Shown: positions 19,430 to 30,987 of the stretch, piece after piece
Layout: each line of letters starts with the position of its first letter
Numbering within the stretch: position 1 is the stretch's first letter
NCBI GenBank assembly: GCA_028819295.1
Contig: JAPPMA010000059.1
Location: 1 to 64,000 of the forward strand
Direction of reading: 5' to 3'
Length of the DNA: 64,000 nt
From: a bacterium
Lineage (GTDB): Bacteria > Actinomycetota > Acidimicrobiia > Acidimicrobiales > Bin134
Program-made: the position numbers and the translations under genes
The notes under the pieces: model-generated
Seen by the model: the letters and a program-made list of their open reading frames with translations, nothing else
The model's database searches: none
Told to the model about the DNA's origin: nothing

Positions 19430-19894
19430 CTAGAAGAGCTTGCTGTTGTCCCAGTTGAGCATCTTGCCCACCGGGGTCAGCTCGATGGTGGCGTTGAGGT
19501 TCTTGTCGTAGTAGTCCCGGGTCTGCTCGGGCATCGCGTCGCGGGCCGTCCGGTACGGGGCGTACTTCTCATCGAGAGCCTGGCCGATCCGGCGGGACAG
19601 CTCCTCAGAGGGCTCGATCACCCGGCCAACGCATTCCACATGCACGGCCCGCAGCTCGGCCCAGCGATCCCCGGCCTCCACCAGAAATGAGCAGCGCTGG
19701 TCGTTGTTAACCCGCACCACCTTCTTGCCCCGCGTGACCATGTAGATCTTCTGGTCGAGCACCACGTACCACACCGGCAGGGCGATGGGCTGGCCGTTGG
19801 ACCGCAGCGTGGTGAAGACGCCGTTCACCGAGGCCTCCAGCATCTCCCAGCACTCCTCGGGCGTCATCCGCACCGTGGGCTTCTTCTCAGCCAC
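19430..19894 (-). CDS. Pyridoxamine 5'-phosphate oxidase-like FMN/F420-binding protein
   Basis: 154 residues, a split beta-barrel (GVFTTLRSNGQPIALPVWYVVLDQKIYMVT, then KKVVRVNNDQRCSFLV). Such proteins bind FMN, F420 or heme; the exact cofactor cannot be told. The GTG start at 19894 overlaps the end of the acyl-CoA ligase gene by 8 bp, so both lie in one operon and are probably translationally coupled. Confidence 0.8.
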   Translation of the reverse strand: MAEKKPTVRMTPEECWEMLEASVNGVFTTLRSNGQPIALPVWYVVLDQKIYMVTRGKKVVRVNNDQRCSFLVEAGDRWAELRAVHVECVGRVIEPSEELSRRIGQALDEKYAPYRTARDAMPEQTRDYYDKNLNATIELTPVGKMLNWDNSKLF

Positions 19895-21449
19895 CTATCA
19901 GATCTCTCAATTCGCGGCGGAGTATCTTGCCCGAGGCCGACTTGGGGATGGCATCGGCGAACCGGACCTCGTCCAAGTGCTTGTAAGTGGCCACATGGTC
20001 GGCCACGTAAGCCTTCACCGCCTGTTCATGAAGCCCGGAGTCGGGAGCAGGAACCACAAACGCCAGCGGCACTTCCCCGCTCTCGTCGTCGGGGCGGCCC
20101 ACCACCGCGGCATCGGTGATCTGAGGGTGCTCCACCAGCAGAGCCTCCAACTCGGCCGGGGCCACCTGGAAGCCCTTGACCTTGATGAGCTCCTTCAGCC
20201 GGTCGACGACGTAAACGTGGCCATCGCCGTCGATCCGGGCGATGTCACCGGTGTGGAGCCAACCGTCCTCATCCAGGGTCTCAGCAGTGGCCTCGGGGTT
20301 GTTGAGGTAGCCCTTCATCACCTGGGGGCCGCGAATCCACAACTCGCCCTCTGTGTCGGTGGGCAGGTCTTCGCCCGATTCAGGGGCCACGATCCGGGCC
20401 TCGGTGTTGGCCACCGTCAGCCCCACCGACCCCGGCTTGAAGTTCCCCGGAGGGGTGGCATGGGAGATCGGGCTGAGCTCGGTCATCCCGTAGCCCTGCA
20501 CCACCTCGCAGTCGATCCGGGCCGACGCCTCTTCGGCCACTTCAGCCCCCAGCGGCGCCGCCCCCGACAGCACCTGGCGCAGCGACGACAGATCGAAGTC
20601 AGCCACCGCGGGGTGCTTGGCCAACGCCAGCACGATGGGGGGCACGGCGAAGAACCGGGTCACCTGGTGGCGCTCGATGAGCGACAGCGCCTGGGCCAAG
20701 TCGAAGCGGGGCATGGTCACCAGCGTGGCCCCGTGGTGAAGCTGGTCGTTCATCAGCACCTGCATCCCGTAGATGTGGAAGAAGGGCAGCACGGCCAGCA
20801 CCACATCGCTGGCCTGGGAGGCGATCGAGGAGGCGCACTGCTCGATGTTGTTCACCAGGTTGGCATGGGTGAGCATCACCCCCTTGGGCAGACCGGTGGT
20901 GCCCGAGGAGTAGGGCAGCACCACCACGTCGTCGCGAGGGTCGACCTTCACCTGGGCGATCGGTTCCCCCATCAGCGACTGCATGGGGGTGCCCGCCGAC
21001 GGGCTGTCGGAGTCGATCACCACCACATCGCCGGCCACCCCGGCCTGGCCCATGGCCTGCTGGGCCTGAGCGGCGAACATGTCGGCGGCGAACACCATCG
21101 TCGCCTGCGAGTCGGTGAGCTGGTAGGCGATCTCGTCTGCTCCGTAGGTGGGGTTGACCGTGGTGACCGCGCCCCCCGCCACCGCCACCGCGTGGAACAC
21201 CACCGGATACCACGGGGAGTTCGGCGCGATGAGCGCGGCAACATCGCCCCGCTGAAACCCGCCGGCGGCCAGCCCGCCAGCCAGGGCATGTACCGCCTGC
21301 TCAAGCTGGCCGAACGTGAGCGACCACTCCCCCGGCCCGTCTATCACCGCCTCCTGGTCAGCCAGCTCCCCGGCCCGCTCCAGCACGAACCCAGTCACCG
21401 GCTGCGAGCTCAGCAGCTCATCGGGCAGGGGGCTGGGGTGAACTATCAC
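19887..21449 (-). CDS. Acyl-CoA ligase (4-coumarate-CoA ligase-like)
   Basis: 520 residues from the GTG at 21449. AMP-binding motifs: YSSGTTGLPKGVMLTH (P-loop), VQGYGMTELSP, WLHTGDIARIDGDGHVYVVDRLKE and the catalytic lysine in SASGKILRREL. The start is chosen because VIVHPSPLPDE matches the usual beginning of this family and because the GTG overlaps the stop of the decayed sulfatase ORF (GTGA). The longer frame to 21785 is upstream pseudogene sequence. Activates a carboxylic acid to its CoA ester; the substrate is unknown. Coupled to the FMN-binding protein downstream. Confidence 0.9.
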   Translation of the reverse strand: MIVHPSPLPDELLSSQPVTGFVLERAGELADQEAVIDGPGEWSLTFGQLEQAVHALAGGLAAGGFQRGDVAALIAPNSPWYPVVFHAVAVAGGAVTTVNPTYGADEIAYQLTDSQATMVFAADMFAAQAQQAMGQAGVAGDVVVIDSDSPSAGTPMQSLMGEPIAQVKVDPRDDVVVLPYSSGTTGLPKGVMLTHANLVNNIEQCASSIASQASDVVLAVLPFFHIYGMQVLMNDQLHHGATLVTMPRFDLAQALSLIERHQVTRFFAVPPIVLALAKHPAVADFDLSSLRQVLSGAAPLGAEVAEEASARIDCEVVQGYGMTELSPISHATPPGNFKPGSVGLTVANTEARIVAPESGEDLPTDTEGELWIRGPQVMKGYLNNPEATAETLDEDGWLHTGDIARIDGDGHVYVVDRLKELIKVKGFQVAPAELEALLVEHPQITDAAVVGRPDDESGEVPLAFVVPAPDSGLHEQAVKAYVADHVATYKHLDEVRFADAIPKSASGKILRRELRDLIGG

Positions 21450-21721
21450 TGGGCGCTGGGAAGCGGGCGTGATGCCGTGGAATGGGCTGCCAGCGTAGTC
21501 GGACAGGCTCCGGTCCACGCCGTCGAGGCCGGCAAGACGGAAAGGGCATCGGGCTCGACAAGGGGTCGTCCATCGGCCCACTCCCCGAAGGTGCGCCACG
21601 GGTCGCCCTCGTGGCCCCGCAGGCAATCCCAGCAGTGGAAATCGGTGCCCCCGTAGCTCCCCAGCATGTGCCGATTCAGCGAGTCCAGCAGGATGACGGC
21701 GACGTTTGAAGGTGAGCTCAT
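21446..21721 (-). pseudogene. Sulfatase remnant with a large internal deletion
   Basis: The ATG at 21721 begins MSSPSNVAVILLDSLNRHML and continues GSYGGTDF, the N-terminus of a type I sulfatase with its metal-binding Asp. The next residues, CWDCLRGHEGDPWRT, resemble a conserved block that normally lies more than 100 residues further on in this sulfatase subfamily. The segment with the catalytic Cys/Ser-x-Pro-x-Arg is missing, so it cannot be an active enzyme. After PLVEPDA similarity is lost, and the frame closes with a TGA overlapping the acyl-CoA ligase GTG. Confidence 0.65.
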
Positions 21722-21808: not shown

Positions 21809-24022
21809 TTGGGGGAGACGTTGGACAACGAACAGGCCCAGAGCGAGTCCATCGACGCGCTGGCCGCCACAGTACTGGAGGGGGAGGCGGCCCGGCGCGA
21901 TGCTCAGAAGGCCGAGGTTCTGTTCCCCGACGATTTGCTGCCCGGAGTGGGTGGCGAACAGACGACGCTCAAGGAGGGTCTGCGAAAAGGGGGCTTTCAG
22001 ACCTTTATCGTCTTGCTGGCGCTGAACAGCCTCGACGAGCTGGAGAACAGCGCGGTGGCCATCCTGGGGCCCGACATCGGCGAGAGCTTCGGGGTGAGCG
22101 ACGGAGCCATCACCGCCATAAGCACCGCATCGCTCATGTTCTTCGTGCTGGGGGCCGGGCCGATGGGATGGCTGGCCGACCGCTTCCGACGCGGCCCCAT
22201 CGTGGGCATCGCCAGCGGGGCCTTTGCCGCATTCAGCGCCTTGTCGGGGGCGGCGGTGAATGCCCTCATGTTCTTCTTCATGCGGTTCTTCGCCGGCATG
22301 TCCAAGGCCAACACCATCACCGTGCATCCCAGCATGCTGGCCGACACCTATCCGCTCCAGACCCGGGGCCGCATGTACGCCACCAACGCCGGAGTGGGGC
22401 GCGTATTCTCGGCCATCAGCCCGGTTTTGGCTGGGGGCATCGCAGTGTGGATCGGAGGCGACGACGGCTGGCGCTGGGCGTTCTACCTTCTCGGGCTGCC
22501 CACCGCGGCCTTGGCTTTCTTGGCCTTCTTCTTGAAGGAGCCACCCCGGGGCCAATGGGAACAGAAGCATGTGCTGGGCGCCGGCCTCAAACAGGACAAC
22601 AAGATGCCGATTTCGGTGGAAGCCGCCTTCACCCGCATCTGGAACATCGACACCATCCGCAATATGACCATCGCCTTCGCGGCCATGGGCTTCGCCCTGT
22701 TCCCAGCCGGCTCAATCCAATCGTTCTTCCTGGAGGAGGAGTTCGACCTCGACGCCTTGGAGCGCGGGTTGGCGGTGGCACCCGCAGGGGTCGGCCTGCT
22801 GGTGTTCCTGCCCTTCGTCGGGCGCCGGTTCGACGCCACCTTCCGCAAGGACCCCGATCGGGCGGTGCGGCTCATCGGGATCCTCCTGCTGCCCATCGGC
22901 GTGCTGGTGCCCATCCAGTACGCCATGCCCAACCTCGCCCTGTTCATGACTCTGTCCGCCATCAACTCCACCTTCTTGGGCGGGGCCTTTGCCATGGTCC
23001 AGCCCGCCATCCAAGCGGTGTTCCCCTACCGGCTGCGAGGCATGGGCACTGCCTTCTTGACCTTCTTCATGGTCATGGTGGGCGGTGTGGGGGGCAGCAT
23101 CATCGCCGGCTTCCTCCAGAACGAGCTCGGCGAGCAGACCGCCATCACCATCATCACCGCAACCGCCATGCCGGTCGGCGCCTACTTCGTGCTGCGGGGG
23201 GCCAGTCGGCTGCGGCGCGACCTCTCGCTGGTCGTCGGCGAGCTGCAAGAAGAACAAGACGAAGAACGCCGCCAGGCCGAGACCGACCCAAACGACATGC
23301 CCGCCATCCAGGTGGCCCATGTCGATTTCAGCTACGGGCAGGTACAGGTGCTGTTCGATCTCGGATTCGAGGTGCGCAAGCAGGAGACCCTGGCCCTGTT
23401 GGGCACCAACGGCGCGGGAAAGTCCACTGCGCTCAAAGTGATCACCGGGCTGGTTACCCCGGAGCGGGGCGTGGTGCGCCTGCACGGCCAAACCATCACC
23501 TTCGCCACTCCTGAGCAGCGGGCGGCCATGGGTCTGCACATGCTGCCGGGAGGGGCCGGGGTGTGGAGCGACCTCTCGATCCGCGACAACCTCCTCATGG
23601 GGGCTTACGCCTATCGCAGGGATCCCAGAGACCGTGACCGGCGCATAGAGATAGTGCTCGACATGTTCCCCGACCTCGGCAAACGACCCAATGAGCGGGC
23701 CGGCAACCTTTCGGGTGGCCAGCAGCAGATGCTGGCCTTGGCCCGAGTGATGTTGCACGAGCCCGAGGTTTTGATGATCGACGAGCTGTCGCTGGGATTG
23801 GCCCCGGTGGTGGTGCAGTCACTCTTGGAAACGGTCGAGGAGCTCAAGGACCAAGGCCAGGCCATGATCATCGTGGAGCAGTCGCTGAACGTGGCCCTGG
23901 CCATCGCCGACCGGGCCGTGTTCCTGGAGAAGGGGCAGGTGCGCTTCGAGGGCCCGGCCCAGGAACTGGCCGAACGGGACGACCTGGCCCGGGCGGTTTT
24001 CCTCGGCACCGAGGGCGGCTAA
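21809..24022 (+). CDS. MFS transporter fused to a LivF-type ABC ATPase
   Basis: 737 residues. Residues ~30-480 form a 12-helix major facilitator domain (GPMGWLADRFRRGPIVG is the loop 2-3 motif, with MYATNAGVGRVFSAISPVLAG further on). A charged linker rich in Glu (~490-505) joins an ABC ATPase with Walker A GTNGAGKST (~532), signature LSGGQQQ (~633) and LivF-like VLMIDELSLGLAP. The TTG at 21809 is kept; a TTG at 21821 is possible. Its stop overlaps the next start by one base (TAATG), so it is co-translated with the LivHMG fusion and probably supplies the second ATPase. Mixing an MFS carrier with an ABC subunit is mechanistically odd. Confidence 0.88.
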   Translation: MGETLDNEQAQSESIDALAATVLEGEAARRDAQKAEVLFPDDLLPGVGGEQTTLKEGLRKGGFQTFIVLLALNSLDELENSAVAILGPDIGESFGVSDGAITAISTASLMFFVLGAGPMGWLADRFRRGPIVGIASGAFAAFSALSGAAVNALMFFFMRFFAGMSKANTITVHPSMLADTYPLQTRGRMYATNAGVGRVFSAISPVLAGGIAVWIGGDDGWRWAFYLLGLPTAALAFLAFFLKEPPRGQWEQKHVLGAGLKQDNKMPISVEAAFTRIWNIDTIRNMTIAFAAMGFALFPAGSIQSFFLEEEFDLDALERGLAVAPAGVGLLVFLPFVGRRFDATFRKDPDRAVRLIGILLLPIGVLVPIQYAMPNLALFMTLSAINSTFLGGAFAMVQPAIQAVFPYRLRGMGTAFLTFFMVMVGGVGGSIIAGFLQNELGEQTAITIITATAMPVGAYFVLRGASRLRRDLSLVVGELQEEQDEERRQAETDPNDMPAIQVAHVDFSYGQVQVLFDLGFEVRKQETLALLGTNGAGKSTALKVITGLVTPERGVVRLHGQTITFATPEQRAAMGLHMLPGGAGVWSDLSIRDNLLMGAYAYRRDPRDRDRRIEIVLDMFPDLGKRPNERAGNLSGGQQQMLALARVMLHEPEVLMIDELSLGLAPVVVQSLLETVEELKDQGQAMIIVEQSLNVALAIADRAVFLEKGQVRFEGPAQELAERDDLARAVFLGTEGG

Positions 24023-26913
24023 TGGACATCGCCTCCGCTTCCGTGGTCGGCACTTGGATCACCCAGCAGTTGGCCTTCAACGGGGTGGTCAGCGGCCTGG
24101 TCACCGGGCTGGTGGCCCTGGGGATCGTGCTCATCTACCGGTCCACCCGGGTCATCAACTTCGCGGTGGGGAACATGGGGATCATCGCCGCCTCAATGAT
24201 GGCACTGCTGCACCTGAACTACGACTGGCCATTCTGGCTGGCGCTGGCGCTCTCGCTGGCGCTGGGCGTTCTGTTCGCCGCCGCGGTGGAGCTGACTGTG
24301 ATCCGCCGATTGTTCAGCTCTCCCCGAGTGATCGTGCTGGTGGCCACGGTCGGTATCGCGCAACTGGCCCAGTTGGTGATCTCCCAGCTTCCCGACATCG
24401 AAGCTGCCGGCCGGAAATATCCGGTGCCGGTTGGCCGAATCTGGGAAAACGTGTGGTTTACCGATATCCGCGTGCGCGGTCCACAGCTCGTCATTCTCAT
24501 CGCGGTGCCGGTTATGGCTCTGCTGTTGGGCTGGTTCATGAACCGGACCTCATTCGGCAAGTCCGTGTCGGCGTCGGCCAACAATCCCGATCTCTCCCGG
24601 CTATCGGGGATCAACCCAAAAACCGTGTCCACCTTCGTGTGGGTGATGGCCGGGCTGTTGGCCTCGCTGTCGATGATCATGCTGTCCGGTGAAACCGGAC
24701 AGATAGCCGGCCTGGCCAACCTCGGTCCCCAAACCCTGGGAAAGGCCATGGTGGCCGCGGTGCTGGCCGGGATGGTCTCCTTCCCCCGAGCCATGCTGGC
24801 CGGAGTGCTGATCGGCTTCCTCGAATTCTTGTTCCGGTTCAACTTCTTCGCCGAGACCGGCCTCATCGACTTTGTCATCTTCTTGGCTGTTCTGGTGGCC
24901 GTGTACTTCCAAAGCCGAAGCCAGGGCGAAGCCGGAGTTTTCTCCTTTGCCCCCAAGGTGCGCGCCATACCAGAACGGCTGCGCCAGGTGTGGTGGCTGC
25001 GAAACCTGTCCAAGATCGCGCTGGGCGCGTTGTTGGCGCTTGGCATCGTGCTAGTGCAGCTTCCTGGCATCGCCGACCTGCCGTCTCGCCAGTTGCTGTA
25101 CGCCACGGTGCTGTGCTTTGCGGTCTGCGGACTGTCGGTCACCATCATCACAGGCTGGGCCGGCCAGCTCTCCCTGGCCCAAATGACCTTCGCCGGCATG
25201 GGGGCGCTATTCGCCGCGAGCCTCAAACGGGGGCTGTCCATGGACTTCACCGTGGGAACCGGGTTCTTGCCCGGCGACGCGTTGTCGTACGACTTCTTCG
25301 ACGTCCAATTCGAGACCGGAGGCATCCCGTTCATGGTGGCCATTCCGGTGGCCGCGCTGTTCTCTGCGTTGGTGGCGGCCGTAATTGGGGTCGGATCACT
25401 TCGAGTTCGCGGCCTCTATTTGGCGGTTACCACCTTTGTGTTCGCGCTGGCCGCCCAGCAGTACCTCTATCGGAGGCCGTTTTTTACTGGGGGCAACGAC
25501 TCGTCGGTGTCGTTCCGCCGGGGCGAGCTGTTCGGCCTCGAGCTCAGATCGCAGAAGGCCTACTACTACGTTTGCCTGGCTTTTTTGCTGATCGCGGTGA
25601 TCATCGTCAGCCGGCTGCGTCGATCGGGGGTGGGGCGAAGCATCATCGCGGTGCGCGACAACGCCGACTCGGCCTCGGGCTACACGGTGGGGCCGGTGCG
25701 CTCCAAGCTCTCATCGTTCGCTTTGGCCGGGGGCATCGCCGGGTTGGGCGGAGCAATGCTGGCCGGCCTGGTGCAGAACGTCCCGATCAGCGAGCGGTTC
25801 TTCCAAGTGGAGGACTCATTGCAGCTTGTGGGCATGGTGGTCATCGGGGGCCTGGGCTCGTCGATTGGCGCAGTGCTGGGCGCGATTTGGGTCTATGGCC
25901 TTCCCAACCTGTTCAACAATGCGGACACCGTGGCCTTGTTCTCCTCCAGCATCGGGCTGCTGCTGGTGCTCATGTACTTCCCCGGCGGCTTGGTGCAAAT
26001 CGGCTACAGCGCCCGAAACGCCCTCATCGGCTTGGCCGAGCGGCGTCTGGGGCCCGACCCCGCCGGCAAGACCGTCCAGACCGCTCCGACCAGCCTGATC
26101 CGGCTTGACGATATTCGGCCGGCTACCGATCCCATGCTGGCCGGCCACGACATCAGCGTGCGGTTCGGCGGCGTGCAGGCGGTGTCGGAGGCCACCGTGC
26201 TGGTCCATCCCGACGAGATCGTGGGCCTCATCGGCACCAACGGCGCCGGAAAGTCCACGTTCATGAACGCGGTGGGTGGCTATGTGCCCTCCACCGGCAA
26301 AGTGGAGCTGCTCGGCACCGACATCACCCGGTTCCCCGCCCCCCGCAGGGCCCGGGCCGGGCTGGGACGCACCTTCCAGACCGCGGCGCTGTTCCCGGAG
26401 TTGACGGTGCGAGAGACGGTGCAGGTGGCGTTGGAGGCCAGGGGACGCACGCCGCTGCTGAGCACCGCCCTGCACCTCCCCCATACATTTTCCTTGGAAC
26501 GGCGGCGCCGGGCCGAGGCCGACGAGCTGATCGACTACCTGGGGCTGGGGCGCTACGCCGATTCCTATATCAGCGACCTGTCCACCGGCACCCGGCGCAT
26601 CGTCGAGATCACCGGTCTGTTGGCCCTGGGCACCCGGGTGCTGTGCCTCGACGAGCCCACCGCCGGGGTGGCCCAGCGGGAGACCGAGGCTTTTGGTCCG
26701 CTCATCGTCAACATCCGCCGGGAGCTGGAAGCGTCCATGCTGATCATCGAGCACGACATGCCCCTCATCATGAGCATCAGCGACCGGGTGTACTGCCTCG
26801 AGGCCGGCAAGGTGATCGCCGAGGGGCCCCCCTCCGAGGTGCGCAACGACCCCTTGGTGGTCGCCAGCTACCTCGGCACCGACGAGCGCGCCATCGCCAT
26901 CAGCGACGCTTAG
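24022..26913 (+). CDS. LivH-LivM-LivG fusion, branched-chain-type ABC importer
   Basis: 963 residues. Residues 1-~310 are a LivH-type permease (GIVLIYRSTRVINFAVGNMG), ~325-660 a LivM-type permease (GWAGQLSLAQMTFAGMGALFAA), and ~700-960 a LivG ATPase with Walker A GTNGAGKST (~738) and Walker B VLCLDEPTAG. The ABC signature reads LSTGTRR rather than LSGGQ. Such HAAT-family systems import amino acids, amides or other small organics. Together with the MFS-LivF fusion it supplies two permeases and two ATPases in two polypeptides. No periplasmic binding protein is encoded nearby, so the substrate is unknown. Confidence 0.92.
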   Translation: MDIASASVVGTWITQQLAFNGVVSGLVTGLVALGIVLIYRSTRVINFAVGNMGIIAASMMALLHLNYDWPFWLALALSLALGVLFAAAVELTVIRRLFSSPRVIVLVATVGIAQLAQLVISQLPDIEAAGRKYPVPVGRIWENVWFTDIRVRGPQLVILIAVPVMALLLGWFMNRTSFGKSVSASANNPDLSRLSGINPKTVSTFVWVMAGLLASLSMIMLSGETGQIAGLANLGPQTLGKAMVAAVLAGMVSFPRAMLAGVLIGFLEFLFRFNFFAETGLIDFVIFLAVLVAVYFQSRSQGEAGVFSFAPKVRAIPERLRQVWWLRNLSKIALGALLALGIVLVQLPGIADLPSRQLLYATVLCFAVCGLSVTIITGWAGQLSLAQMTFAGMGALFAASLKRGLSMDFTVGTGFLPGDALSYDFFDVQFETGGIPFMVAIPVAALFSALVAAVIGVGSLRVRGLYLAVTTFVFALAAQQYLYRRPFFTGGNDSSVSFRRGELFGLELRSQKAYYYVCLAFLLIAVIIVSRLRRSGVGRSIIAVRDNADSASGYTVGPVRSKLSSFALAGGIAGLGGAMLAGLVQNVPISERFFQVEDSLQLVGMVVIGGLGSSIGAVLGAIWVYGLPNLFNNADTVALFSSSIGLLLVLMYFPGGLVQIGYSARNALIGLAERRLGPDPAGKTVQTAPTSLIRLDDIRPATDPMLAGHDISVRFGGVQAVSEATVLVHPDEIVGLIGTNGAGKSTFMNAVGGYVPSTGKVELLGTDITRFPAPRRARAGLGRTFQTAALFPELTVRETVQVALEARGRTPLLSTALHLPHTFSLERRRRAEADELIDYLGLGRYADSYISDLSTGTRRIVEITGLLALGTRVLCLDEPTAGVAQRETEAFGPLIVNIRRELEASMLIIEHDMPLIMSISDRVYCLEAGKVIAEGPPSEVRNDPLVVASYLGTDERAIAISDA

Positions 26914-28054: not shown

Positions 28055-29581
28055 TTACTGCCATGCCCAGCCGCACGCTTCGGCAACCGGGCGAACATGG
28101 ATGGACGCATCCTCCAAGCTGAATACGAAAACGCCGAATTGCCCGCCATCCCCATTCTCTACGGAAACCATGAGCCAGCGGCTGTTGGTGTTGACGGTTG
28201 AGTTGATGAACGCCACCTCATCGCCTACTGGGAGGAAAATTGCGTTGTTGAGGGGGGATGCACCCCACAGATCCCGGACTCCGTTAAAAGCGACGAAGTC
28301 GCCCTGTACCGCCTCTCCCCACGAGAAGAAAGCACCGGGCAAGCGCACATGGGCGGCGGGGACGCGGCCGGCGTACGCGCTCTGACCCTCCACACTCCCG
28401 CGCTCGAAAGACAGGAATACCTCGAGGCCCCCTCCACCGCACCTCACGAACAGCCAGTCGTCGCTGTCTCCATCTGGGAATCCCCGGTTGTGAAGGTAGG
28501 CGGAGACTCCTGCGATGCGGCCACCGCCGACCAGTTCTGTGCTCACCCACTCGTGAGCACCGCTGGACAAGGTGGGCTGCTGCTCCGTCGTGCCGCAAAC
28601 TCCGGCGGAGGGTATCCCGGCGTAGCGGACGAACAAGAGATCGGCCGCGCAGCGGAAGACATCGTTGTGTACACAAGCGTCGTAAACGCGTGGATCTGAG
28701 TGAGACTGGCAGGTCTGGATCGAAGGGTGGAGGGCCACAAGGGCATGGGCGGTCTCGTGCAGGATGGTCTGCAAGGACGAGTCGAGCCTTCGCAGGTGAT
28801 GGCTGCTGTGCTGGTAGCAGGCAACGATCACCCCTCCCTCAACCGCGGTGGCGCAGGTGGCGCCTGTCGGCGCCAACTCGCTGGTTGGCGGAGTGGCTGG
28901 CTTCCCCTCCACATCGACTTCCGCCCAGATCTTCTCCACCAACGACTGTCCATCGGCCTCCGAAAGGGAGCGGTTGTAGCTCCTGTTGTCCCAGAAACCG
29001 TCCCAGGCGCACCTCTCCCACTCAAGCAATCCGGATGCGATTGTGTGGGCGCACCGCCCCGATGGCGGAGCGGCCGCCACGTTGATCTGCTCTTGCGCCG
29101 CGTTGGTCGGCTCTTGCGCCACGTTGACCGGCTCTTGCGCCGCGTTGACCGGCTCTTGCGCCGCGTTGGTCGGCTCTTGAATCGGGGCGGGAACCCCGCC
29201 TACGCACCCGCCGGGCACAACCTGGGCATCGATGTCGAAACGGCAGCGGTAAACGTTGAGGAGCGCTTCTTGGGCGGCCACCAATTCATCGCGTGCGGCC
29301 AAGTCGTCGGGCGTGGGCATGCCGGTGAACGGAGTCGGTTCAGTCGCGGGCAGAGCCGGCTGGCCACCTTGACACCCGCCGGGCACAACCTGGGTGTCGA
29401 TGTCGAAACGGCAGCGGTAAACGTTGAGGAGCGCTTCTTGATCTGCGACCAGTCGGTCGCGGATTTGGACGTCATCCAGAGTCGGTTGGCCTTGTGCCAC
29501 CGTGGTGCCGATCATGGCGGTGGGAAAGACGCCGATGAGCGACAGAGCCAGCCCCGCAGACATCACTCTGGCCGCAACCAT
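28055..29581 (-). CDS. Secreted repeat protein with HExxH metallopeptidase motif
   Basis: 508 residues. A signal peptide (residues 1-~30, MVAARVMSAGLALSLIGV) is followed by two copies of a ~33-residue module (40-73 and 96-129) containing QEALLNVYRCRFDID and VVPGGC. Then come five 7-residue repeats (QEPTNAA type, ~135-169), and a domain with HETAH at 275-279 and a later His305 in VHNDVFRCAADLLFVRY. This spacing looks like zinc peptidases with a third His ligand, so a metal-dependent protease is plausible. The C-terminal ~170 residues are beta-rich and unrecognised. GAGG nine bases before the ATG. Divergent from the secreted protein at 29632. Confidence 0.7.
   Translation of the reverse strand: MVAARVMSAGLALSLIGVFPTAMIGTTVAQGQPTLDDVQIRDRLVADQEALLNVYRCRFDIDTQVVPGGCQGGQPALPATEPTPFTGMPTPDDLAARDELVAAQEALLNVYRCRFDIDAQVVPGGCVGGVPAPIQEPTNAAQEPVNAAQEPVNVAQEPTNAAQEQINVAAAPPSGRCAHTIASGLLEWERCAWDGFWDNRSYNRSLSEADGQSLVEKIWAEVDVEGKPATPPTSELAPTGATCATAVEGGVIVACYQHSSHHLRRLDSSLQTILHETAHALVALHPSIQTCQSHSDPRVYDACVHNDVFRCAADLLFVRYAGIPSAGVCGTTEQQPTLSSGAHEWVSTELVGGGRIAGVSAYLHNRGFPDGDSDDWLFVRCGGGGLEVFLSFERGSVEGQSAYAGRVPAAHVRLPGAFFSWGEAVQGDFVAFNGVRDLWGASPLNNAIFLPVGDEVAFINSTVNTNSRWLMVSVENGDGGQFGVFVFSLEDASIHVRPVAEACGWAWQ
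29075..29180 (-). repeat. Five 21-bp tandem repeats
   Basis: Five units of 21 bp encode the heptads QEPTNAA, QEPVNAA, QEPVNVA, QEPTNAA and QEQINVA in the secreted metallopeptidase-like protein. They act as a spacer between the Cys modules and the catalytic domain. Confidence 0.85.
29205..29440 (-). repeat. 68-bp near-identical direct repeat (YRCRFDID module core)
   Basis: Bases 29205-29272 and 29373-29440 differ at two positions over 68 bp (offset 168). They encode the cores of the two modules in the gene at 28055. Identity is higher at DNA level than protein function requires, suggesting recent duplication. Confidence 0.85.
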
Positions 29582-29631: not shown

Positions 29632-30987
29632 ATGAGCGCACTTAGGCTCCGCGGTAAAGTGGCCGTTTCTCGCCACACGGCCCTGCTTGCCGTGTTCGCG
29701 CTGGTATTGATGTCCGTCGTAATTGTCTTGGCGGCGGAGACAGCGAGGGCCGAAGTCCCTGATGGCCAACCTCCACCTGGGGTAATGGCTCGGCTTGTCG
29801 CTGCGGCAGCAATACAGAGAGCCGACACCCCCCAAGACCAACCCCAACCAAACACCCCCCAAACAGAACAACAGAACCCACCAACCACCCCAACAGAAAC
29901 ACAGCCTGCCGACACCCCCCAAGACCAACCCCAACCAAACACCCCCCAAACAGAACAACAGAACCCACCAACCACCCCAACAGAAACACAGCCTGCCGAC
30001 ACCCTCGTGGTCCAGGCGCAGACAAGTGACTCAACGCCAAACCAAGACGACGATCCAGACATCCAGGGAGCGCCCGCAGACGGCGAGGTTGCCGCCGAGA
30101 TCGTGAACCGTCCCGAGGGCGACAATGTGGTCTCTATCACGCCCAATGGCGACAGAATCACAATCAAGGACTCAAACAATGGGGAAACGCAGTCGGATGC
30201 CCCACTCTGGCAGGACAACCCCAACAAGGATGAACCAGGGGCTGATCCAGGTTCTCAGAACATAGGCGATACAACAGGCGACGAGGACGTCATGGTGGTG
30301 CTGAACCGTCCGACCACCACAACTGACGACGGCGAGGAGCACACCAAGCAGTGGGATGCCTGGTATGCCACATATTACGAATTGGTCGCGCTGGGCAACG
30401 ACTTCATCGAATGCGAGACAGGCGATCATGTGCCCGGGGGAGAGGAGTGCTGGGTTGTTGATGTATCGCTGGTAAGCGAAACACTGGAAGAAGAGGAAGA
30501 GGCCGACAGCGATGACGGCGGGCAGGGATCCACGCCTTCGGCATTGCCCTTGACACCAGAGCAACGCTGGCCAGGCCGCAACTATCAGTGGACAGATCCT
30601 GGACCAGTCGACGAACCAGGCACCGACCAAACCCCACCAGTCGACGAACCAGACACCGACCAAACCCCACCAGTCGACGAACCAGACACCGACCAAACCC
30701 CACCAGTCGACGAACCAGGCTCAGGCGAGGATGCCAACCCGCTGACCACAATAGGCCAGAATCCTGAAGACGGCAGCGAGATCACCATTGTGAACATTCC
30801 CAGTTCAACCAATGACCCGGAACAGCGTAAGAGAAACTTCGACCTCGAGAACGAGGCGCTGGACGCGCTCGATGAAGCCGGCGAGCCCTACGTGGTGTGC
30901 TTCGGTGATGAGACGTACACCGATATGCACACTGGCGACACGGTAACCATACCCGCGTTCTGCAATGTGATAGATCCGAGCGTTTGA
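29632..30987 (+). CDS. Secreted Pro/Thr/Gln-rich repeat protein, unknown function
   Basis: 451 residues with a signal peptide or N-terminal anchor (VSRHTALLAVFALVLMSVV). A perfect 29-residue tandem duplication (Pro/Gln/Thr-rich) covers about residues 64-121, and four copies of an 11-residue unit (PVDEPDTDQTP) lie near 325-365. Two related short domains, each with a cysteine pair, appear after these linkers: ALGNDFIECETGDHVPGGEECWVVD and EAGEPYVVCFGD...AFCNVID. No known domain recognised. Codon use in the linkers is A/C-biased and unlike flanking genes. Divergent from the HExxH secreted protein, so both may act together at the cell surface. Confidence 0.7.
   Translation: MSALRLRGKVAVSRHTALLAVFALVLMSVVIVLAAETARAEVPDGQPPPGVMARLVAAAAIQRADTPQDQPQPNTPQTEQQNPPTTPTETQPADTPQDQPQPNTPQTEQQNPPTTPTETQPADTLVVQAQTSDSTPNQDDDPDIQGAPADGEVAAEIVNRPEGDNVVSITPNGDRITIKDSNNGETQSDAPLWQDNPNKDEPGADPGSQNIGDTTGDEDVMVVLNRPTTTTDDGEEHTKQWDAWYATYYELVALGNDFIECETGDHVPGGEECWVVDVSLVSETLEEEEEADSDDGGQGSTPSALPLTPEQRWPGRNYQWTDPGPVDEPGTDQTPPVDEPDTDQTPPVDEPDTDQTPPVDEPGSGEDANPLTTIGQNPEDGSEITIVNIPSSTNDPEQRKRNFDLENEALDALDEAGEPYVVCFGDETYTDMHTGDTVTIPAFCNVIDPSV
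29821..29994 (+). repeat. 87-bp perfect tandem duplication
   Basis: 29821-29907 and 29908-29994 are identical over 87 bp. The strand is almost free of G (mostly A and C). It encodes two copies of a 29-residue Pro/Gln/Thr-rich linker. Confidence 0.95.
30603..30722 (+). repeat. 33-bp tandem repeats, about four copies
   Basis: Four units of 33 bp encode PVDEPxTDQTP; the last copy is partial (PVDEPGSGED). Acidic, proline-rich spacer between the two Cys-pair domains of the secreted protein. Confidence 0.9.

Follow-up and report, generated by a model that had tools for sequence, protein, structure and literature searches.

Related transport systems

Primary pumps of the ABC type and secondary carriers of the MFS type are treated as separate classes. 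On the primary side, the locus analysed here most resembles the HAAT importers (LivJ/K-LivHMGF and UrtABCDE; TC 3.A.1.4), with which it shares the LivH, LivM, LivG and LivF domains and, in most of its relatives, an adjoining type I binding protein. On the secondary side, it resembles the Spinster proteins (HnSPNS 6e8j/6e9c, SPNS1 and SPNS2), together with DgoT and the aromatic acid symporters (ACS, PcaK). In the ArsAB arsenite pump, a secondary carrier is paired with an ATPase and ArsA powers ArsB; ArsA is not an ABC ATPase of the LivF kind.

We analysed a stretch of 64 000 nucleotides (hereafter, the window) on contig C85 of a host genome of 3.56 Mb in 108 contigs (G000). The close relatives that carry names are metagenome-assembled Acidimicrobiia, including Candidatus Poriferisocius.

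Organization and domains of the two-gene locus

The first-pass annotation had described a complete HAAT core encoded by two polypeptides, one of them carrying a whole 12-helix MFS carrier, and this description was borne out by the Pfam and NCBIfam domain assignments and by an AlphaFold2 model. The features of the two genes are listed below.

21809-24022, + strand: MFS-LivF ORF, open, with MFS_1 (PF07690, 117 bits) followed by ABC_tran (PF00005, 92 bits)
21811-21823, + strand: probable ribosome-binding G-run (GGGGGAG, 21811-21817) and TTG start (21821) of MFS-LivF, from conservation in orthologues
21986-23203, + strand: MFS carrier domain, 12 TM helices, Spinster-like (Pfam MFS_1 1e-33; AlphaFold2 model; PDB profile match)
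23210-23281, + strand: helical linker in the cytosol, between TM12 and the ATPase (helix 467-490 of the AlphaFold2 model; Asp471 in 56/56 rows)
23306-24013, + strand: LivF-type ATPase domain with LSGGQ (Pfam ABC_tran; best NCBIfam match UrtE/LivF)
24022-26913, + strand: LivH-LivM-LivG ORF (BPD_transp_2 twice, ABC_tran and a BCA_ABC_TP_C tail)
24022-24921, + strand: LivH-type permease domain (Pfam BPD_transp_2; NCBIfam UrtB/LivH)
24994-26016, + strand: LivM-type permease domain (Pfam BPD_transp_2; NCBIfam UrtC/LivM)
26128-26886, + strand: LivG-type ATPase domain with the LSTG signature and BCA_ABC_TP_C tail (Pfam; NCBIfam LivG 1e-58)

The two permease domains were recovered as two stretches of PF02653 (188 bits), and PF00005 was detected in both ATPases, with the P-loop GTNGAGKST, the signatures LSGGQ and LSTGT and the Walker B motifs IDEL and LDEP. 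The nearest NCBIfam relatives of the LivG ATPase were LivG and UrtD. The LSTG that the first-pass annotation had singled out in LivG is present, but it is no oddity, since nearly all LivGs of the family carry LSTG, and a degenerate signature was thereby ruled out. The third position of the signature varies in other LivGs of the host genome (LSHG, LPTG, LHYG and LPYG).

The AlphaFold2 model of MFS-LivF (pLDDT 88.8, pTM 0.83), for which the row from a plasmid record was left out of the input, showed 12 TM-length helices, the helical linker at 467-490 and the nucleotide-binding domain. The MFS half thus combines the 12-TM fold with motif A (GWLADRFRR), in which R128 is invariant.

Translation of MFS-LivF more likely starts at the TTG at 21821 than at 21809, because the G-run followed by TTG is conserved at this position (kept in 10 orthologues), and the predicted protein would be about 733 aa in length. 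The two genes were confirmed to overlap, though merely by 1 bp, as TAATG in the window and TGATG in relatives, and this overlap was kept in 13/13 orthologues checked. A scan for promoters and terminators yielded nothing useful. Further downstream, a Pro/Gln/Asp-rich ORF (29632-30987) contains a perfect 87-bp tandem repeat (2.1 copies, 29821-30004) and a 33-bp repeat (3.5 copies, 30603-30718), and the ORF at 28055-29581 contains a 21-bp repeat (29075-29179).

Distribution of the MFS-LivF fusion

The contig comes from a metagenome-assembled genome, and an assembly join or chance juxtaposition of the MFS and LivF parts was therefore considered; we regard its probability as negligible, because the same fusion turns up in numerous independently assembled genomes, among them the single-contig chromosomes OX638344.1 and OX638350.1 and a large linear plasmid of Embleya (NZ_CP108785.1), and the join was rejected on this ground. 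Within the genus, 19/22 genomes matched the MFS part alone as query, and nearly all full hits lay in open frames of about 740-850 aa, that is, in the fused form; no split orthologue of MFS-LivF was seen among the same-genus genomes. At class level, the whole MFS-LivF matched in 88/296 genomes, mostly as full-length fusions, with some partial or LivF-only matches, and 19/396 genomes of a phylum sample, other classes included, matched at a stricter cut-off. None of the 299 genomes of Pseudomonadota, the sole group sampled outside the phylum and one that offered no positive control, carried the fusion. Neither of the two findings that the first-pass annotation had named as fatal to its proposal, an assembly join or separate orthologous genes in close relatives, was encountered. 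In actinobacteria, the junction between MFS and LivF is old and has been strongly conserved.

Family history and domain rearrangements

In the fused proteins, MFS always lay directly N-terminal to LivF, with LivH/M and LivG alongside wherever the contig permitted, while the order of the remaining domains differed between branches: MFS-LivF and LivHMG (the window type); LivHM and MFS-LivF-LivG; or MFS-LivF, LivHM and LivG. In the LivF tree, every MFS-fused LivF fell into one clade (100/98), and the fused MFS domains likewise formed a single clade, with 20 solo MFS proteins for comparison (98/93; limited outgroup). Since both halves are each confined to a single clade, the fusion probably arose once. 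We propose to treat these systems as an MFS-HAAT composite family, defined by MFS N-terminal to LivF, LivH/M/G at the same locus and a single clade, all of which were observed here.

Nested within the fused LivF clade was a subclade without MFS, in which LivH-M-F-G are encoded in one or two chains (e.g. L242). The HAAT part can dispense with MFS, since a portion of the clade lacks it. The simplest reading of this history would be that the fusion happened once, that some lines lost MFS afterwards and that the HAAT parts were re-fused repeatedly.

Several arrangements were observed alongside these. At L235-L239 and L243, an MFS-less LivH-LivM-LivF-LivG occupies one open frame of about 1250-1515 codons and lies beside a divergent binding protein of the same type. 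At L251 (4371-9557), one open frame of 1729 codons spans LivH-LivM-MFS-LivF-LivG, with no ATG between LivM and MFS. This may be a five-domain single-chain transporter; a sequencing slip is also possible, because the corresponding region of the sister genome L250 is split into two frames.

Binding protein of the family and its loss in the window

The first-pass annotation had stated that no binding protein is present. This holds for the window, whose cluster contained no type I periplasmic binding protein, but not for the system as a whole: a binding protein was found within 4 kb at 56/67 MFS-bearing loci with enough flank, a tally counted by hand over loci that are not independent. In most relatives, the adjoining protein was of a divergent Peripla_BP_6 type, often with a recognizable lipobox, and four Cys residues were invariant in the family. 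Its predicted fold (pLDDT 91) was that of a type I binding protein, nearest to binders of 4-hydroxybenzoate, 3-hydroxybenzoate, p-coumarate and leucine. The other branch has an even more divergent binding protein, the link coming from a profile comparison (hhalign, E 7e-19). Proteins of about 600 aa beside LivHM and MFS-LivF-LivG (L143:4213-6090, L145:3787-5547 and others) had no convincing Pfam match, and profile comparison pointed to very divergent binding proteins.

The gene order in the genus orthologues was ligase, redoxin, binding protein, sulfatase and MFS-LivF. In the window, about 150 bases remain of the 4 kb that separates the ligase from the fusion in the orthologues, and they match fragments of redoxin and sulfatase in unchanged order, as follows.

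19887-21446, − strand: acyl-CoA ligase (AMP-binding; Pfam 3.7e-99), syntenic neighbour in the genus and a hint only as to substrate
21488-21647, − strand: deletion scars, with redoxin remnants at 21488-21536 and 21538-21583 and a sulfatase remnant at 21589-21647, continuing at 21638 (blastn against L061, L064, L069 and L073)

At two scar junctions there is a short overlap, of about 7 bases in one and about 10 in the other. The interval is best read as the product of stepwise deletions, by which the binding-protein gene was wholly lost and the sulfatase and redoxin genes were removed. The binding protein was likewise absent from L065, L067 and L070; because the flanks of these loci differ, several independent losses are probable.

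These deletions raise the separate question of whether this particular copy is a decaying remnant without function. The host carries one intact copy, compared with up to eight per genome in relatives, and its second paralogous system has been reduced to scars at G000:C108. Against this, both ORFs are open across 5.1 kb, the start and the 1-bp overlap are intact, the MFS domain of the window is 92-96 % identical to most orthologues, and dN/dS is low also in comparisons with L065, L067 and L070, the other lineages without a binding protein. Decay of the window copy is thus quite unlikely. The scars of the second MFS-LivF/LivHMG/binding-protein system (G000:C108; L255:7804-8564) are three in number, consisting of LivG, LivF and binding-protein pieces with syntenic flanks.

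One intact binding protein of this family, a paralogue, stands alone in the host genome at C51:16633-17976. Its orthologues in six genomes were 71-86 % identical, and two of these genomes, G001 and G012, also have no local gene. The C51 protein may be the partner of the window importer and is our candidate for this role.

Conservation and relationships of the MFS half

In orthologue comparisons, dN/dS was 0.03-0.09 for MFS, 0.04-0.08 for LivF and 0.09-0.15 for LivH. By this measure the MFS domain is under purifying selection, although pairwise values cannot exclude recent decay after loss of the binding protein. The distance matrix of MFS correlated with those of LivH/M/G at 0.79-0.85 (52 operons), a level equal to that of the canonical subunits among themselves; in the permutation test, run on the MFS-LivH pair, the maximum was 0.14. 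The suggestion of the first-pass annotation that secondary carrier and primary ATPase form a combined device was strengthened by the probable single origin, the purifying selection and this co-inheritance.

Since the top Foldseek matches of the whole fusion were ABC proteins only, a profile search was used to place the MFS half. Against the PDB, the best match was the bacterial Spinster HnSPNS (6e8j/6e9c, 1.5e-37), followed by SPNS1 (4e-31), DgoT and SPNS2. Glu129 acts as the proton master switch of HnSPNS and is partnered by Asp41 and Arg122 (PMC9440201). The RxxxG motif on TM4 is present in the window as R159/G163, R159 being the retained Arg122 of HnSPNS. The switch and its Asp partner are replaced by Lys166 and Glu79, respectively; the Glu129 position holds Lys or Arg in many family members, and Asp41-Arg42 corresponds to Glu79-Asn80 in the window. 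The MFS half thus retains the fold and gating motifs but lacks the proton switch. Because Lys166 takes the place of the proton-switch Glu, it is not certain that this half transports.

One alternative is that the MFS half no longer transports and serves the HAAT complex as a membrane anchor, assembly scaffold or substrate sensor. The Lys at the switch position would fit this role, as would the absence of R159 from some members, the faster evolution of MFS than of LivF across the family (median identity 0.26 versus 0.52) and the apparent loss of MFS in one subclade. However, all twelve helices are intact and dN/dS is very low, Arg128 of motif A is invariant (56/56 aligned rows, as is Asp471 at the start of the linker), and charged residues are conserved in TM1 and TM4, with R159, H173, D76 and E77 mostly kept in the alignment. 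We consider this alternative rather unlikely.

By analogy with ArsA and ArsB, the fused LivF might power the MFS half directly. The permanent fusion, the invariant Asp471 and the missing proton switch are compatible with such an arrangement, but LivF retains the usual LivF features and is found together with LivH, LivM and LivG, and the same kind of LivF occurs in the MFS-less relatives, so that direct powering appears very improbable.

Proposed mechanism and substrate

Our preferred reading, to which we give a little better than an even chance, is a binding-protein-dependent HAAT importer with a tethered MFS carrier for organic anions, the role of the tether being inferred. The LivH/LivM pore and LivF/LivG motor would normally be fed by the Cys-rich binding lipoprotein, and a short helix links the Spinster-like MFS to the LivF N-terminus; because MFS is fused to LivF, every assembled importer would bring an MFS carrier along. 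The HAAT part would most likely import an organic acid at the expense of ATP, and ATP-driven import is likewise predicted for the HAAT system of the window. The MFS part would cycle by an alternating access of its own, with the same organic anion or a related one as cargo, and would offer either a second and cheaper route or a path for exchange. In the lineage of the window, in which the binding-protein gene was deleted, the importer may use the lone paralogue elsewhere in the genome. We thus envisage a working HAAT importer and a working MFS carrier that would share an organic-acid substrate.

The proposal of an organic acid stems from the neighbouring CoA ligase, the fold of the binding protein and the charges of the MFS cavity, which, being positive, would suit an organic anion; each of these is weak alone. 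The neighbours of the paralogues vary (short-chain dehydrogenases, amidohydrolases, enoyl-CoA hydratases, sulfatases, PhyH and P450), and the attempt to read the substrate from conserved neighbours was abandoned, because no partner is fixed across paralogues and the differing neighbour genes give a weak hint only.

The catabolic genes nearby also bear on a second alternative, in which the HAAT part imports a precursor and the MFS part exports a product, by-product or drug. The nearest solved MFS relatives include the exporters SPNS2, NorA and EmrB in addition to symporters, which would agree with such an import-export pair. The paralogues, however, share no fixed catabolic partner, and direction is unreadable from sequence; we judge this alternative unlikely. 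A closer coupling than that of our preferred reading, in which carrier and importer form one machine, in which the ATPase cycle of LivF energizes or gates MFS, or MFS hands substrate to LivH/M, and in which MFS can partly replace the binding protein in lineages that have lost it, seems improbable.

The wider meaning lies in the fusion itself. Its stability and age, and its retention through several ABC rearrangements under strong selection, suggest that a primary pump and a secondary carrier can work as a unit. The natural variants, in which MFS is lost, the binding protein is lost or, possibly, five domains stand in one chain, make this question directly testable.

Comparison with known transport systems

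The component families of the locus are known, and for the composite we found no published description: the open-access papers searched gave no relevant account of MFS-ABC fusions, and domain-architecture databases or TCDB may list the architecture without comment.

Compared with the HAAT importers, the subunits here are fused and LivF carries an MFS domain, while the binding protein is very divergent, has the four invariant Cys and is deleted in the window. HAAT subunits also appear to be joined in one chain elsewhere in the same genome (LivHMG, LivH-M-F and similar), in open frames of 917 and 996 aa on contigs C51 and C82; no MFS domain was seen in these. The 996-aa frame on C82 apparently joins LivH, LivM and LivF, which suggests that HAAT fusions are not rare in the host.

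With the Spinster proteins, the MFS half shares the best profile match to a solved structure, motif A, RxxxG on TM4 and D179 at the end of TM4; it differs in the changes from Glu129 to Lys166 and from Asp41-Arg42 to Glu79-Asn80 and in its fusion to an ABC ATPase. The MFS half also matched the models for D-galactonate (TIGR00893, 5e-20) and aromatic acid (TIGR00895, 2e-13) transporters, but with scores far under the curated cut-offs, and it is not a member of the DgoT or ACS/PcaK groups. Finally, a carrier and an ATPase are common to ArsAB and the present locus, which additionally contains a full ABC importer.
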